A stretch of 64,000 bases of DNA. Source: Chitinophaga sancti. Its GTDB lineage: Bacteria; Bacteroidota; Bacteroidia; Chitinophagales; Chitinophagaceae. The notes below the pieces were generated by a model. It was given only the letters and a program-made list of their open reading frames with translations. It was not told the DNA's origin and made no database searches. This document shows positions 18,545 through 61,070 of the stretch, piece by piece. The position numbers and the translations under genes are program-made. The DNA lies in contig NZ_CP139972.1 in the NCBI RefSeq assembly GCF_034424315.1, positions 4,650,001 through 4,714,000 of the forward strand, in the 5' to 3' direction. Numbering within the stretch: the stretch's first letter is position 1; every line of letters begins with the position of its first letter.

Positions 18545-18864
18545 AATGGAAGTATAGGTTGAATGAAAAACTGGTTTTGAATTTATAGGTGATCTACACG
18601 GGTAAAAGGTTGCAAAGGCAGTTTATAACTGGCACTCATTTCATAAATAGGATTTCCAACTGATAATCAATGCATAAATAGTAATTATAAAATGAGTTCT
18701 ATTATCCTTTTTTATCGCTATTACAATAAGCACATCCTAAATTAAATGCCCTCCATGATTACAGCTACAGGCAAGCAGGCCATTACAATGATTACTGAAA
18801 AACATTTCCCTTCATGATTACTGCTACATATATACTGTCATTGTACTACCAATCCAGTCATACA
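18545..18864. other. 320-bp intergenic region with repeats
   Basis: Holds the palindromic element at 18631-18700 and a further direct repeat, CATGATTAC(A/T)GCTACA, at 18754-18769 and 18813-18828. I see no gene. Confidence 0.6.
18631..18700. repeat. Palindromic intergenic element, copy A (~70 bp)
   Basis: Ends ...ACTCATTTCATAAATAG and ...TTATAAAATGAGTTCT are inverted repeats. The centre contains TGATAATCAA. A second copy lies at 56511-56581 with the same ends and centre (AACTCATTTCATAAATAGG and TTGATAATCAAT are identical or nearly so). In both cases the element stands upstream of a minus-strand membrane-protein gene. Confidence 0.8.
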
Positions 18865-23824: not shown

Positions 23825-24229
23825 ATGCACCAAACCACTTTATTATTAAGACAAGTTCATCCATCTTTTGTACAAGCCAACAAAATATCGTCACAGGTAT
23901 TTAGCATAACATCCCAGGTATTTAGGCCGACGCCAAAGGATCAGAACCAGCTTTCCGTTTACAACAGCAATAAATATACTCCCCAGGAGTCTCATGCTCA
24001 TTTCACTGCTATTGATACCAGCTATAAATCTCATGGAGTAGTTGCCGTAAGCGTGCAGGAATGTGATATGGAAGGCCTTAAATGCGAAGAAAACAATATT
24101 CCGTTTGATGGCCATTCTTTCATTGATTTCAATATGCTTTCAGGTAGTCAAATTGAGAAGAAAGCGAAAAAGTTAAGGAACTACGCAATGGAAAGAGGCT
24201 GGCTATACGAACAAAGTGGTGAAAATTAA
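23825..24229 (+). CDS. Accessory two-gene module, second protein (134 aa, function unknown)
   Basis: Soluble protein opening MHQTTLLLRQVHPSFVQANK and containing VFRPTPKDQNQLSVYNSNKY and HGVVAVSVQECDMEGLKC. These three blocks are the recognisable core of a small family I know only from two-gene accessory loci. It is translationally coupled to the 373-aa gene. Size, tight coupling and A+T-rich sequence fit a toxin-antitoxin-like or defence-type pair, but nothing catalytic is identifiable, so this is inference only. Confidence 0.75.
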   Translation: MHQTTLLLRQVHPSFVQANKISSQVFSITSQVFRPTPKDQNQLSVYNSNKYTPQESHAHFTAIDTSYKSHGVVAVSVQECDMEGLKCEENNIPFDGHSFIDFNMLSGSQIEKKAKKLRNYAMERGWLYEQSGEN

Positions 24230-24240
24230 GCGTTAATTAT

Positions 24241-24350
24241 AAAGAGGTTGTTTCAATAGTAATTTGAAGGCATTGAGAATTGCATTAATTAAACTCTCCG
24301 CCAGGTATCCTCATTAATCCGGGGAATTTTACTTTTGATACAACCTCTTT
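24241..24350. ncRNA. Structured repeated element, copy 1 (~110 nt)
   Basis: Read on the minus strand it begins GAGGTTGTATCAAAAGTA and ends TTGAAACAACCTC, closing a long stem. Conserved internal blocks are CGGATTAAT, ACCTG-GGAGAG, TTCTCAATG and TTCAAATTA. The second copy at 51397-51505 keeps all of these blocks while the stem changes GAGGTTGT/ACAACCTC to GAGCTTGT/GCAAGCTC, a compensatory G-C to C-G swap. Both copies follow the stop of a minus-strand gene. It is an RNA-structure or mobile-repeat candidate; type ncRNA is tentative. Confidence 0.5.
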
Positions 24351-25131
24351 AATCATACAAACTATCATACCAATCATCCTGCTGCGCATTCCCATCCTTT
24401 ATAATAAATGGCTTCAAATTAATTCTATAATATCTCGCCAACACCACCATTACCAATTCAGCAACCAATTCCTGCGCATCTTTCAGAGACATCATATCCT
24501 GGATCTCCTCATGCCTGATTCTGCGCTGATGGGCATCCATGGCCTGTGTAAAGCGAGCCAATGTTGCTTCTGAAAAACCAGATAAGATCAGCTCATCACC
24601 TTTCTCCATCAAAAATGCAAGTACATGATCATACGCTTTCCGCAAACTCTTCACATCCATACCTTCGCTAAGCGCCAATAACAGCTCTTTTATAAACACA
24701 TCTCCCGGCACCAGTTTCAACAGGTGCGCAGCCGGGTGTTCATCTTCTTCAATTGGTGAACGGTAAGCAGAAAAATCAATATCAACATGTGCTTTAACAC
24801 CTCTTTCTACATTCGCCATTCTAAACGTATTCACATCAATCACCGATGTGAAACTGATCTTATTCACCTTATCCTTATTTTCAAAAAGCAGGTACGATAC
24901 CCCATCAATAAACTTCACCAGGTAACAGGCCTGTTCATATACCTGTGAGTCCGCAGTGGAGGCCAGGTATGCGGAACTAAAAACATACAGGGGTTGCCCG
25001 TCATTGTAAAAACACCAGATCCTGAAACCTTTATCAGTCAGGGTTTCTGTTAACCCAACAATGAAATTGTCAGCGATATCTATTTCGAATGCCCAATTTG
25101 CCATTGCATTGAATGAATTAGTCTGCATCAA
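24349..25131 (-). CDS. Hypothetical protein (260 aa)
   Basis: Starts MMQTNSFNAMANWAFEIDIA. Acidic, soluble, with a beta-rich first half (FRIWCFYNDGQPLYVFSSAY, SYLLFENKDKVNKISF) and a helical second half (VFIKELLLALSEGMDVKSLR, HQRRIRHEEIQDMMSLKDAQ). No signal peptide. I do not recognise the family. Its stop codon touches the structured element at 24241-24350. Coding potential is good over the whole length. Confidence 0.65.
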   Translation of the reverse strand: MMQTNSFNAMANWAFEIDIADNFIVGLTETLTDKGFRIWCFYNDGQPLYVFSSAYLASTADSQVYEQACYLVKFIDGVSYLLFENKDKVNKISFTSVIDVNTFRMANVERGVKAHVDIDFSAYRSPIEEDEHPAAHLLKLVPGDVFIKELLLALSEGMDVKSLRKAYDHVLAFLMEKGDELILSGFSEATLARFTQAMDAHQRRIRHEEIQDMMSLKDAQELVAELVMVVLARYYRINLKPFIIKDGNAQQDDWYDSLYD

Positions 25132-25480
25132 ATGTACAGAAATCAGGAATAGCCCTTGCCATTTTACTGTTTATAGCCGGAGTGCGATCCCTGTTTTTCA
25201 TTTACGCCATGATCCAACGGGCAAGCGGACCAAAAGGGAAAAGCTGGCTGGAGAATACAGCGCTACCTGGGTGATTAGAATGGAACAGACGGGCTTATTA
25301 TCAACAAGTTTGAGGAGTTTATGAGAGAGGTAAAAAGGAGACAACAATGTTAGTACAGATGAGTGATGACGATGATAATTCTATATTCACGCTTCATGTG
25401 GGGGATTTATAACGGGAGCATTAGAAAAATATCCATAAAAAAAGGGGATCAGTTACCTGATCCCCTTTTTCATAAACTTA
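25132..25480. other. 349-bp region with a membrane-protein fragment
   Basis: On the plus strand, about 25139-25276 translates without a start codon to a single membrane segment (IALAILLFIAGVRSLFFIYA) plus a short basic tail before a stop. It is followed by further short open pieces up to 25410. This looks like debris of a decayed small membrane-protein gene. The terminator at 25439-25470 closes the region. Confidence 0.35.
25439..25470. terminator. Bidirectional terminator, 14-bp perfect stem
   Basis: AAAAAGGGGATCAG and CTGATCCCCTTTTT around a TTAC loop. T-runs on both strands; it lies 10 bp past the GH84 stop. Confidence 0.85.
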
Positions 25481-31564: not shown

Positions 31565-31640
31565 AAAAAGGAGACCAATTACCTGATCTCCTTTTTACCG
31601 GTTTTTTGTCGGGGTGACCGGACACTTTTCGAACTTTTTG
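31565..31640. repeat. Terminator plus tRNA-3'-end-like repeat, copy C1
   Basis: A hairpin (AAAAAGGAGA / TCTCCTTTTT) is followed by CCGGTTTTTTGTCGGGGTG and CACTTTTCGAACT. The same string recurs at 60993-61067, almost unchanged. The order (terminator, GTCGGGG, TTCGAAC) matches the true 3' end of the tRNA-Pro gene at 33146-33213. Confidence 0.75.
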
Positions 31641-33099: not shown

Positions 33100-33180
33100 A
33101 TTTTTCCATACGTCCGGATTATAACAAACCCAATATACCAAAAACAAAAAAGGAGATCAATTGCTTGATCTCCTTTTTTC
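33100..33180. repeat. Repeat block C3 ending in a terminator next to tRNA-Pro
   Basis: About 75 bp (TTTTTCCATACG, GATTATAACAAACC, AATATACCAAAA, then the terminator) match 60945-61030 at well over 80% by eye. Here the block ends at the 3' end of tRNA-Pro. Confidence 0.75.
33146..33179. terminator. Terminator, 14-bp perfect stem, beside tRNA-Pro
   Basis: AAAAAAGGAGATCA and TGATCTCCTTTTTT around ATTGCT. It lies 8 bp beyond the tRNA 3' end on the minus strand and has T-runs on both strands. Confidence 0.85.
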
Positions 33181-33187
33181 CGATTCG

Positions 33188-33261
33188 TCGGGGCGGCAGG
33201 ATTCGAACCTGCGACCTCCTGCTCCCAAAGCAGGCGCGATACCGGGCTACGCTACGCCCCG
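33188..33261 (-). tRNA. tRNA-Pro (TGG anticodon)
   Basis: Read on the minus strand: acceptor CGGGGCG pairs with CGCCCCG, D-arm with AGCCCGGTA, anticodon stem CCTGC/GCAGG with loop CTTTGGGA holding TGG, T-loop GGTTCGAATCC, discriminator A. CCA is not encoded. 74 nt. The A+T-rich orphan tract ends beside it, the usual position for an integration site. Confidence 0.97.
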
Positions 33262-51138: not shown

Positions 51139-51396
51139 GTAAAAAATGCTTTCGTCGCGTTAAATAACGGAAATTTATTAGTAATTAAAATGAATAGAAA
51201 AACAGGCTTTCCCTTGCCTGAAAGACACAGCAAATAATAAAAAACAATCAAAATATCTATGAAATAATATATGGAATGACAACCGTGTTATAACATCTAA
51301 TCTAACTCAAGTAATCGAGATTTCCAAATAAAATGTTAACTAATCTTGAATTATCAATCCCCCGTTGACGGCAGTAGTCTCTCATTAAAAACAAAT

Positions 51397-51505
51397 GGAG
51401 CTTGCATCAAAAATAATTTGAAAACATTGAGAAATTCATCAACAAAAATTCTCTCCATCAGGTACCCGGATTAATCCGTGTAATTCTACTTTTGATACAA
51501 GCTCC
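51397..51505. ncRNA. Structured repeated element, copy 2 (~109 nt)
   Basis: Same layout as 24241-24350. On the minus strand: GAGCTTGTATCAAAAGTA at the 5' end, CGGATTAATCCG, TACCTGATGGAGAG, AATTTCTCAATG, TTCAAATTA and the closing TTTTTGATGCAAGCTC. It ends 5 bp from the stop codon of the Calx-beta gene, matching the placement of copy 1. Confidence 0.5.
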
Positions 51506-51509
51506 TGTT

Positions 51510-53282
51510 TTATCTAATAATAACCAGTTTACCTCTATAGATCTTTTTTCTCCCCCTTTCATTCACCTCCAGTATATAACTATACAATCCTGGGCCAGCC
51601 CTACGTCCATCCCAGCTATTATCATAATTATCCGACCTGTAAACAAGCACGCCACCACGCAGCAAGTTAAAAACAGAAAGTCTTGAACCAGGATAATTCT
51701 CCAATCCCCGGATCACGAACAAATCATTCCTGCCATCTCCATTTGGCGTAAACACATTAGGAATACACAGCCGGATATAACTGGAATCATTATCTGCAAT
51801 TGAGATCACCACTACACTATCCGAATTAACAGGATAAAACGCACTATCTCCATTTCCGCCATCAATCTGGAGGTTCAAATATTCTGTCGGCTCCACCTGG
51901 TTATCATCCAAAATATTAATTGGCAGTGTAGCACTGTGTTGTCCTGCAGGAATAAGCAGGGGAGGCATTGTATAATCAACACCTGCGGTTGCAGTAGTGC
52001 CGGTTGCAATAACATGATAATTAACATGTACATCTTCTGCGGCTACAAGGCTATCCGGGTAGGATAATGTCAGGCTCGCTGCAAGCCCCCCTTCCCGGCC
52101 ATCGGTCGCGGCAGAGATAGCAATAGATCTTCTATCAAAATCATCGTCATACAATGGAACAGTAGCTGCTGGGTTATTATTATAAACGGTGATAGGATCA
52201 CCTGTTGGCGTGCTTGCACTGACGAGAACGACGTGAATATATTCGTCACCTTCTATGACCTTATCATTAATAGGGTGAATGGGCACTGTTACAGTACCAT
52301 TATTATACTTTGAAACAGGAATGACAATACTATCCACCGGAAGATAATCTATACCTTCAATCGCAGTTCCTTCCATTTGGATTTTAACAGTGATAGGCTG
52401 TATGACAAAATCATCTCCCGTAGGAATTGTATAGAGGGAAATGTACCCATCTACCTGGGGATCTGCCTCCCTTGGACTACCCACATAATTAATGAAGACA
52501 TTTGCACTTCTTACAGGCTCAATAGTATCGTTATTATCAAATACATAAATAGGTCCATAGGTTGCACCATCATACATCATCTCGAAATCACCGCTGACAA
52601 TACCTGTGATATCAAAGTATATTAATTCAGTATCTTCCTTCACCTGGTCATCAAGCACGTTGATCACTGCAACAACGTTATGTTGCCCGGAATCAATCCG
52701 CAACGTAGGCCCGTCAATATCCCTAAAACCAGCAGTTGTACCGGTACCAAAACTGGCAGATACCCAAATGGGCTGACCTGCTATATAATCGCTGGATAAG
52801 CTGGCGGTAATTGTTGCATCAGGCCCGCCTTCCGTTCCATTTGTTGAACCGGTGAATGAAATGATTGCATTTATCAGGTCATCATCGTAAATTCTGAGGG
52901 TAGTTGGCGTGGCATCTACTTCCACGCTATCCGACTTATTTGTTGTTGCACTTTGAATTGAGAGTACAACATCAGCATAGTCTTCAACGATCCTGTTTTG
53001 GACAGGAATGACCGGGAAAGTGAAGCTGCCATTACCATCTGTAACGGGGATTTTAATACGCTGTGGGAAAGCCTGGTAATGCACACCCGGTACAGCGGTT
53101 CCACTGGTTATAAAGTCGACGCTAACCGTATCTGTACCGCTGGCAGTGCCGGTAACGGTGATGGTATAACTACCTCCGGGAAGGCTTTCGTTGGTATTTG
53201 CATGATTAGTGATGGCTACGTGATAGTCGGCAGCGGATACAGCGGGGGCACCAACTACTAACATGAGTAGTAATAGTTTCAT
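51510..53282 (-). CDS. Calx-beta surface protein with T9SS type B (gliding-associated) C-terminus
   Basis: 590 residues. Signal peptide (about 1-18, ...AVSAADY). Four Calx-beta domains (about 20-130, 135-250, 265-390, 395-500) are marked by repeated DGREGG/NGTEGG openings and late DDD, DDQVKEDTELIYFD and EGDEYIHV blocks that bind Ca2+. The final 85 residues are the gliding-motility-associated domain (CIPNVFTPNGDGRNDLFVI). It is exported by type IX secretion and anchored at the surface, probably as an adhesin or matrix protein. Confidence 0.93.
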   Translation of the reverse strand: MKLLLLMLVVGAPAVSAADYHVAITNHANTNESLPGGSYTITVTGTASGTDTVSVDFITSGTAVPGVHYQAFPQRIKIPVTDGNGSFTFPVIPVQNRIVEDYADVVLSIQSATTNKSDSVEVDATPTTLRIYDDDLINAIISFTGSTNGTEGGPDATITASLSSDYIAGQPIWVSASFGTGTTAGFRDIDGPTLRIDSGQHNVVAVINVLDDQVKEDTELIYFDITGIVSGDFEMMYDGATYGPIYVFDNNDTIEPVRSANVFINYVGSPREADPQVDGYISLYTIPTGDDFVIQPITVKIQMEGTAIEGIDYLPVDSIVIPVSKYNNGTVTVPIHPINDKVIEGDEYIHVVLVSASTPTGDPITVYNNNPAATVPLYDDDFDRRSIAISAATDGREGGLAASLTLSYPDSLVAAEDVHVNYHVIATGTTATAGVDYTMPPLLIPAGQHSATLPINILDDNQVEPTEYLNLQIDGGNGDSAFYPVNSDSVVVISIADNDSSYIRLCIPNVFTPNGDGRNDLFVIRGLENYPGSRLSVFNLLRGGVLVYRSDNYDNSWDGRRAGPGLYSYILEVNERGRKKIYRGKLVIIR

Positions 53283-56472: not shown

Positions 56473-56510
56473 CCTTACAGTTTTTATAAATGGTAACTGG
56501 AAATAAATAT

Positions 56511-56581
56511 AGAACTCATTTCATAAATAGGTATTTTGAATTGATAATCAATCTCTAAATGATAATTACGAAATAAGTTCT
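56511..56581. repeat. Palindromic intergenic element, copy B (~71 bp)
   Basis: Ends AGAACTCATTTCATAAATAG and TTACGAAATAAGTTCT are inverted repeats; the centre TTGATAATCAA is itself palindromic. See copy A at 18631-18700. Confidence 0.8.
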
Positions 56582-56647
56582 AATAGAATTTATAAGCGGC
56601 CCCATTTGTTATATTAGAATAAAAACAACCTGCAATATATCTTATTA

Positions 56648-60944: not shown

Positions 60945-61070
60945 CGAATTTTTTCCATACGCCAGGATTATAACAAACCAAATATACCAAAACCGGAAAA
61001 AGGAGACCAATTACCTGATCTCCTTTTTCCGGTTTTTTGTCGGGGTGCCCCGACACTTTTCGAACTGTTT
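60945..61070. repeat. Repeat block C2 (shared with 33100-33180 and 31565-31640)
   Basis: The left half (TTTTTTCCATACG, GATTATAACAAACC, AATATACCAAAA) matches the sequence beside tRNA-Pro; the right half (terminator, CCGGTTTTTTGTCGGGGTG, CACTTTTCGAACT) matches C1. C2 therefore joins both, and it contains a perfect GTCGGGG-TG-CCCCGAC hairpin at 61040-61055. Confidence 0.8.
60993..61032. terminator. Terminator within block C2
   Basis: CCGGAAAAAGGAGA and TCTCCTTTTTCCGG, 14-bp perfect stem around CCAATTACCTGA. No gene ends immediately before it on either strand. Confidence 0.75.

Follow-up and report, generated by a model that had tools for sequence, protein, structure and literature searches.

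Within the IS1182 family, IS1272 is reported to replace the inverted repeats of its targets without generating duplications (PMC5678879), and TnSha1, which is built on IS1272, deletes parts of hairpins, several of which were confirmed as terminators by RNA-seq (PMC4923244). One repA terminator was entered by TnSha1 in both orientations (PMC4923244). An IS survey reports IS1182 as over-represented between convergent genes (PMC9208149). Terminator formation is offered as a possibility in a review of prokaryotic MITEs, which also mentions ERIC, BOX and the terminator-like SPRITE (PMC10969869). BrickBuilt and other MITEs of Porphyromonas are intergenic and carry ends that resemble those of resident IS elements (PMC4596501).

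The element described here resembles the staphylococcal IS1272/TnSha1 elements in its inverted-repeat targets, which include terminators, in the probable removal of the stem-loop and in the absence of target duplications (PMC5678879, PMC4923244), and the IS of Chitinophaga polysaccharea (genome G002) with which it shares its ends belongs to the IS1182 family as well (NF033551). IS1272 and TnSha1, as described in these reports, carry a transposase and measure 1-3 kb or more, whereas the present element is non-autonomous, only about 110 nt long and present in high copy number, and its whole body forms one branched hairpin in the place of the terminator. SPRITE from Streptococcus pneumoniae is likewise a small dispersed repeat resembling a rho-independent terminator; hairpin replacement is not described for it in the passages of the review that were considered (PMC10969869), and the two are set apart by description, not by sequence. 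The Porphyromonas MITEs, although from the same phylum, differ in having IS5-type ends, target duplications in three of four intact copies and a minisatellite, and the terminator stays in place in the case described (PMC4596501). The literature searched, a scope that left most subscription journals aside, contained neither an IS1182-type MITE that replaces terminators nor this repeat in Chitinophaga. What is apparently new is therefore a non-autonomous, high-copy family of terminator-swapping MITEs with a conserved branched core; the hairpin-replacing mechanism is already known for autonomous relatives. ERIC, BOX and REP-type repeats are dispersed intergenic palindromes, as is the present element (a likeness of description, not of sequence), and to our knowledge they have no IS1182 link and do not replace terminators.

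Taken as a whole, the element is with high probability an IS1182-family MITE whose arms double as transposase inverted repeats and as a hairpin stem and which replaces terminators, and not a dedicated RNA gene. Several parts of this reading can be taken directly from the sequences: identical cores at unrelated sites, IS1182-like ends, the lack of target duplications, the place directly after stop codons and the presence of terminator hairpins at orthologous empty sites.

The window, that is the entire 64,000-nucleotide stretch of Chitinophaga sancti DNA that was analyzed (NZ_CP139972.1, positions 4,650,001 to 4,714,000), contains two copies. A duplicated element of about 110 nt on the minus strand had been proposed in the sequence-only reading of this DNA, and both the duplication and the strand hold: the copies are 78% identical over query positions 4-107 (E=4.2e-17, BLAST, 8.42-Mb genome). 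Copy 1, a covariance model match of 110 nt (24241-24350, minus strand, 96.1 bits), has a GAGG..CCTC core at 24244-24347; the 5' arm of its outer stem, consisting of the terminal inverted repeat plus AAA, lies at 24329-24350 and the 3' arm at 24241-24262. Copy 2 (113 nt, 51395-51507, minus strand, 101.6 bits) has a GAGC..GCTC core at 51398-51504 and outer-stem arms at 51486-51507 (5') and 51395-51416 (3'). The conserved blocks that had been named do follow each other in the same order; their spacing, stated to be the same, is nearly but not exactly so, since a single 3-nt gap separates 110 from 113 nt. Both of the stem changes pointed out earlier are real: the G-C of copy 1 at pair 7 corresponds to a C-G in copy 2, a true compensatory exchange, and the U-A of copy 1 at pair 11 to a U-G in copy 2. 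Both copies had also been said to begin at a stop codon, which is correct for copy 1 (TAA at 24351-24349 on the minus strand, core from 24347); copy 2 begins 5 nt past its stop codon (TAA at 51512-51510, minus strand, core from 51504). On the minus strand the two copies fold considerably better than dinucleotide shuffles (z=-5.1 for copy 1 and -5.4 for copy 2), and all six copies folded on both strands beat their shuffles, with z between -4.2 and -9.2. Each of the window copies is flanked by ORFs pointing inward, a feature that the sequence-only reading does not mention, the second ORF being 11 nt away from copy 1 and 451 nt away from copy 2. The ORF ending at copy 1 (24349-25131, minus strand, 260 aa) is without Pfam match and has relatives in three of 59 other genomes searched; the ORF running towards the same copy and ending 11 nt from it (23825-24229, plus strand, 134 aa) is without Pfam match as well. 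The ORF ending at copy 2 (51510-53282, minus strand, 590 aa) encodes CHU_C type IX secretion and Calx-beta domains.

With copy 1 as the query, BLAST gave 40 matches in its own genome (G000). A covariance model built from 31 copies recovered 51 places scoring at least 58 bits in this 8.4-Mb genome; the full list of 105 rows also contains weaker matches and readings of these palindromes on the reverse strand, which were left out. The element is thus short (about 110 nt) and has many copies, as is usual for MITEs. A search of related genomes had been suggested as a check, and the model matches 31 of 36 genomes from the same genus among the 59 genomes searched, with none of the 23 genomes from other families of the same order giving a match. 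Copy numbers vary widely, with at least 63 matches in G031, 49 in G002, 31 in G012, 23 in G033 and 0-15 in the others, numbers that may include reverse-strand readings. An exact core pattern was found in 24 stretches from named species, 22 of them from Chitinophaga and one each from [Flexibacter] sp. ATCC 35208 (37 bits in the model) and Pseudoflavitalea rhizosphaerae (53 bits); the element family is therefore not confined to one genus.

In C. sancti the copies have diverged to a mean identity of 69% (89% for the best pair) and no two cores are identical, as would be expected for an old, vertically inherited family of regulatory repeats that has not moved recently. That such an explanation holds is extremely improbable in view of C. 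polysaccharea, where seven of the 20 copies examined (L092-L098) share an identical 108-nt core while their 300-nt flanks do not have a single 16-mer in common. A second common core occurs in L106-L109 and a third in L102-L103. A copy number ranging from zero to about 60 among the 36 genomes of the genus and the existence of empty orthologous sites likewise speak against mere inheritance. Mobility is thus evident from comparison, namely from identical cores at unrelated C. polysaccharea sites together with empty orthologous sites.

A likely partner for this mobility is encoded in the same genome. C. polysaccharea contains four intact elements of 1778 bp encoding an IS1182 transposase (NF033551 with 459 bits at a cut-off of 270, PF13751, PF05598, PF01609). 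The left end of one of them (L152) is identical to the MITE 5' end over 19 nt and the other copies, including L150/L151, have one mismatch; at the right end, IS and MITE differ at three of 19 positions. No derivation of the MITE interior from the IS was seen, and ends common to the MITE and an autonomous IS were found in C. polysaccharea only. The C. sancti genome is without an intact IS1182 transposase and has one remnant of 167 aa, and no match at 1e-10 was obtained in G031, G033 and G012, which carry about 60, 23 and 31 copies of the element, respectively, and of which G033 is a single contig. Seven of the 36 relatives have a match above the IS1182 family cut-off, and copy number does not follow the presence of the IS. 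These organisms may have lost the transposase, or another enzyme may be involved. The best-scoring copies L082, L086 and L089 (from G014, G028 and G020) have ends of the GGCTGACCAAAAAG type, as does the IS1182 element of G010 (L267); such ends are absent from L080, the best copy in G010 itself. That one core is combined with several kinds of ends suggests an exchange of the partner IS.

Flanking target-site duplications had been put forward as the mark of a plain MITE. None are present: over lengths of 2-12 nt, the identity of the two flanks equals that in a control with mismatched copies, and this holds in three genomes, so that a MITE with target duplications is not supported. As a hairpin-replacing mode is known in IS1182 relatives, the absence of duplications is compatible with mobility. 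What the flanks do exhibit is complementarity. The triplets directly outside the core are complementary in 18 of the 20 C. polysaccharea copies (AAA/TTT in 12 copies, GAA/TTC in two, furthermore CAA/TTG, AGA/TCT, AAG/CTT and ATA/TAT), and the left side has seven different sequences. Position by position, complementarity amounts to 95-100% in this genome as compared to 68-90% between different copies; for the older copies of G031 and C. sancti the corresponding values are 61-87% and 49-69%.

This complementarity is explained by orthologous sites without the element, at which a hairpin is found instead and the A/T tracts are the same as at the occupied site. Where C. polysaccharea has AAAGAGG..CCTCTTTTTTG at L094, G004 reads AAAAAGCGGATAGC..GCTGTCCGCTTTTTTG, and the L092 site of G004 also bears a strong terminator hairpin; in four more distant relatives, the L092 gap contains no obvious hairpin by eye. 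The gene preceding copy 2 is followed in G014 by AAAAGAAGGGTCGGCA-GAA-TGCTGACCCTTCTTTT, an intrinsic terminator hairpin in the place of the element. In this comparison, which is anchored on the gene side only, G035 and G074 have a hairpin with a T-run (by eye), G069 has one arm only and nothing clear is visible in G031. For copy 1, orthologs in G014 and G069 have no clear terminator, and near this site G031 carries an element 12 nt further on. When 16 of the 51 C. sancti sites were queried against three relatives, at least one relative held both flanks close together in eight cases. Among these eight, L017 and L024 are occupied by the element in G031 too, L005, L007, L019 and L026 have a terminator hairpin in relatives and L013 and L022 give no clear picture. 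The L005 hairpin is seen in G031, and G014 and G069 have a small hairpin of end-like arms instead; the right flank of L019 aligns at a distance of 69 nt. Altogether, replacement of a hairpin appears supported at seven sites, i.e. L092, L094, copy 2, L005, L007, L019 and L026, with one flank loosely or not aligned at L019 and copy 2, and not at copy 1; L095, L097 and L098, whose orthologs were anchored by a single side, were left out of the empty-site count.

Complementary flanks would also arise if the MITE preferred the middle of palindromic targets and inserted there without replacing anything. A few flanks are indeed complementary over longer distances (13 nt at L102, 10 nt at L099), L096 (G002:C3:654260-654373) by eye occupies the centre of a further long inverted repeat (..CTGATTTTGATGAT..ATCATCAAAATCAGC..), and in G014 four IS1182 copies of another subtype lie in the loops of terminators, where both arms persist and 9-bp duplications are present. 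On the other hand, complementarity ends at exactly 3 nt in 11 of the 20 C. polysaccharea copies, which weakens insertion into long palindromes as a general rule, and comparison with the empty sites shows that the arms of the target hairpin are gone in the occupied allele. We consider simple insertion into palindromes very unlikely and prefer replacement of the hairpin. The four G014 copies just mentioned (L268, L277, L282 and L285) are 1745-bp IS1182 elements with GAGGGCACTGAA ends inside the loops of terminator-like hairpins, and their 9-bp direct repeat is made of the loop region; they represent a second mode of insertion within the same IS family and the same genus. Long near-perfect palindromes with AAAGC-rich arms and folding energies of -70 to -100 kcal/mol (L231, L236, L233 and L238 in G034, G060, G018 and G019, respectively) were noticed after the ortholog of the gene that precedes L094.

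Most copies lie close to the end of a gene. A stop codon lies within 25 nt, in either orientation of the element, for 109 of 131 copies (51 from C. sancti, 60 from G031, 20 from C. polysaccharea) as compared to 191 of 24091 control windows from the same loci (0.8%; 14% of the intergenic ones). Based on mechanically called ORFs of at least 80 aa, 75 copies lie between convergent and 51 between tandem genes; two are in divergent arrangement, two inside a called ORF and one is unassigned. Between tandem genes, the element points in the direction of the gene in 31 of 51 cases (p=0.16), and eight sites occupied in both C. sancti and G031 divide evenly into four with opposite (L115/L020, L123/L137, L165/L003, L017) and four with the same orientation (L128/L141, L162/L134, L173/copy 1, L024), L165 and L173 being aligned by one flank and the offset pair L119/L144 being left out of the count. 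Sites shared in opposite orientation imply that the two genomes acquired the element independently or that the terminator was replaced a second time. Runs rich in T follow the stem on both strands, with a mean of 5.7-6.3 T in 9 nt forward and 4.9-6.1 reverse as opposed to 2.4-2.9 further on. The element thus has the form of an intrinsic terminator, i.e. a stable hairpin directly followed by a T-rich run behind a gene, and from the way it folds and where it lies, transcription arriving from either side would be expected to end there.

Covarying stems, which the sequence-only reading had taken as typical of structured RNAs, are clearly present in the larger family. Both partners vary in 24 of the 41 pairs of the alignment of 31 copies, as compared to 11.3 (sd 2.1) in shuffles and 10-15 with slid partners, and the covariation score of 0.229 exceeds those obtained after shuffling (0.144) or sliding (0.063-0.083); because of the relatedness of the copies, shuffles overstate the significance. 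The signal is concentrated in the 22-bp outer stem, which contributes 17 of the 24 pairs (17 of its 22) and is paired in 91.8% of cells. In the two inner helices, the structure of which was drawn from single-sequence folds, both partners vary in two of eight and five of 11 pairs, with about 82% of cells paired. An alternative register of the inner helix did not raise covariation. Compensatory change in situ between orthologous copies could not be shown in pairs from G031 and C. sancti: in seven pairs whose sites match or lie close together, ranking of the 51 C. sancti copies by identity puts the orthologous one at 14, 43, 1, 50, 31, 4 and 49, so that common descent of the paired copies is in doubt.

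Strong covariation together with an interior conserved across species would fit a structured RNA in 3' UTRs, either a small RNA or a stabilizer of mRNA 3' ends, that acts on one strand, has its stems selected as RNA and spread only secondarily. A weak excess of G.U over A.C pairs on the forward strand of the outer stem also speaks for it: C. sancti has 55 against 33 (p=0.025) or, without the outer three pairs, 40 against 26 (p=0.11), and the corresponding counts in G031 are 35 against 25 (p=0.25) and 30 against 14 (p=0.023), a weak sign of selection on one strand. The G.U excess of the inner helices was not counted as evidence, since their structure had been selected on the forward strand and then served to fit the alignment. 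An RNA of this kind is nevertheless improbable, given the opposite orientation at half of the shared sites, the lack of a clear preference between tandem genes and the identical cores at unrelated sites. In addition, no known RNA family matches: Rfam 15 yields only a tRNA at gathering scores for the window and no match at E<=1 for the element at five loci. Three possibilities had originally been listed, and two of them, an unusual terminator and a mobile palindromic repeat, appear both to be right, whereas the third, a strand-specific 3' UTR RNA, is weakly supported.

According to the preferred reading of a terminator-replacing MITE, the arms of the approximately 108-bp core would serve as terminal inverted repeats for an IS1182-type transposase and at the same time as the stem of a large hairpin. 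Transposition would excise an intrinsic terminator's stem-loop as far as the base of the stem and put the element in instead, the A-tract and the T-tract of the target being kept, and the new hairpin would together with the T-tract end transcription from either side. Insertion may be cheap for the host because hairpin and T-tract would stand in as a terminator. Pairing of the stem would be maintained by two demands, the fit of both ends to the transposase and termination by the hairpin, and template switching between the arms may possibly aid pairing. The stem probably represents transposon ends and a substitute bidirectional terminator in one, and this double role would explain the covariation of the outer stem and suffice for it.

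A more far-reaching proposal, which we regard as unlikely but worth stating, is that of a "terminator parasite": one branched core would ride on ends of different IS1182 subtypes, take and re-take the same terminator slots within a genus and be selected as a one-strand RNA, which might for example set the 3' ends of host transcripts or attract the transposase. If this were true, a mobile element would be an exchangeable part of the host termination system. Even in the simpler form of a terminator-replacing MITE, this mobile element would spare its host by taking over the role of the very structure that its insertion destroys, and natural pairs of occupied and empty sites offer a means to measure the effect of a terminator swap. 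A caution follows for dispersed repeats in general: strong covariation of a stem need not signify a structured RNA gene because transposon ends that must match, together with a replaced terminator, produce such a signal as well.

Other repeats were noticed in the course of this work. A further repeat, about 55 nt long (TTTGAAAATGGTTTTCATGCC..GGTGAATTCCCGCTTTCATGAATG) and likewise dispersed, occurs in the flanks of L010, L004 and L013 and at the L026 and L007 sites of G014/G069; it often adjoins elements or sits in their slots and in places (G069, G014) has a spacing of about 55 nt, like tandem arrays. Small hairpins of end-like arms (e.g. GAGGCTGTATCATAAGTCCGATACAGCCTC) are found at G000:C1 97337, 100092, 924342 and 7858108, among other places, and also in G014. 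The pattern TGTATCN{4,14}GATACA is present at 32 places in the C. sancti genome versus six in the reversed control, and at 71 versus three in G014. Within the window, a 42-66-nt repeat (TGATAATCAAT..) with direct and inverted copies lies at 18652-18717 and 56509-56598, and a terminator-like hairpin (AAAAAGGAGACCAATTACCTGATCTCCTTTTT) recurs at 25439-25480, 31565-31606, 33147-33188 and 60997-61038, some copies of which also have longer flanks in common.
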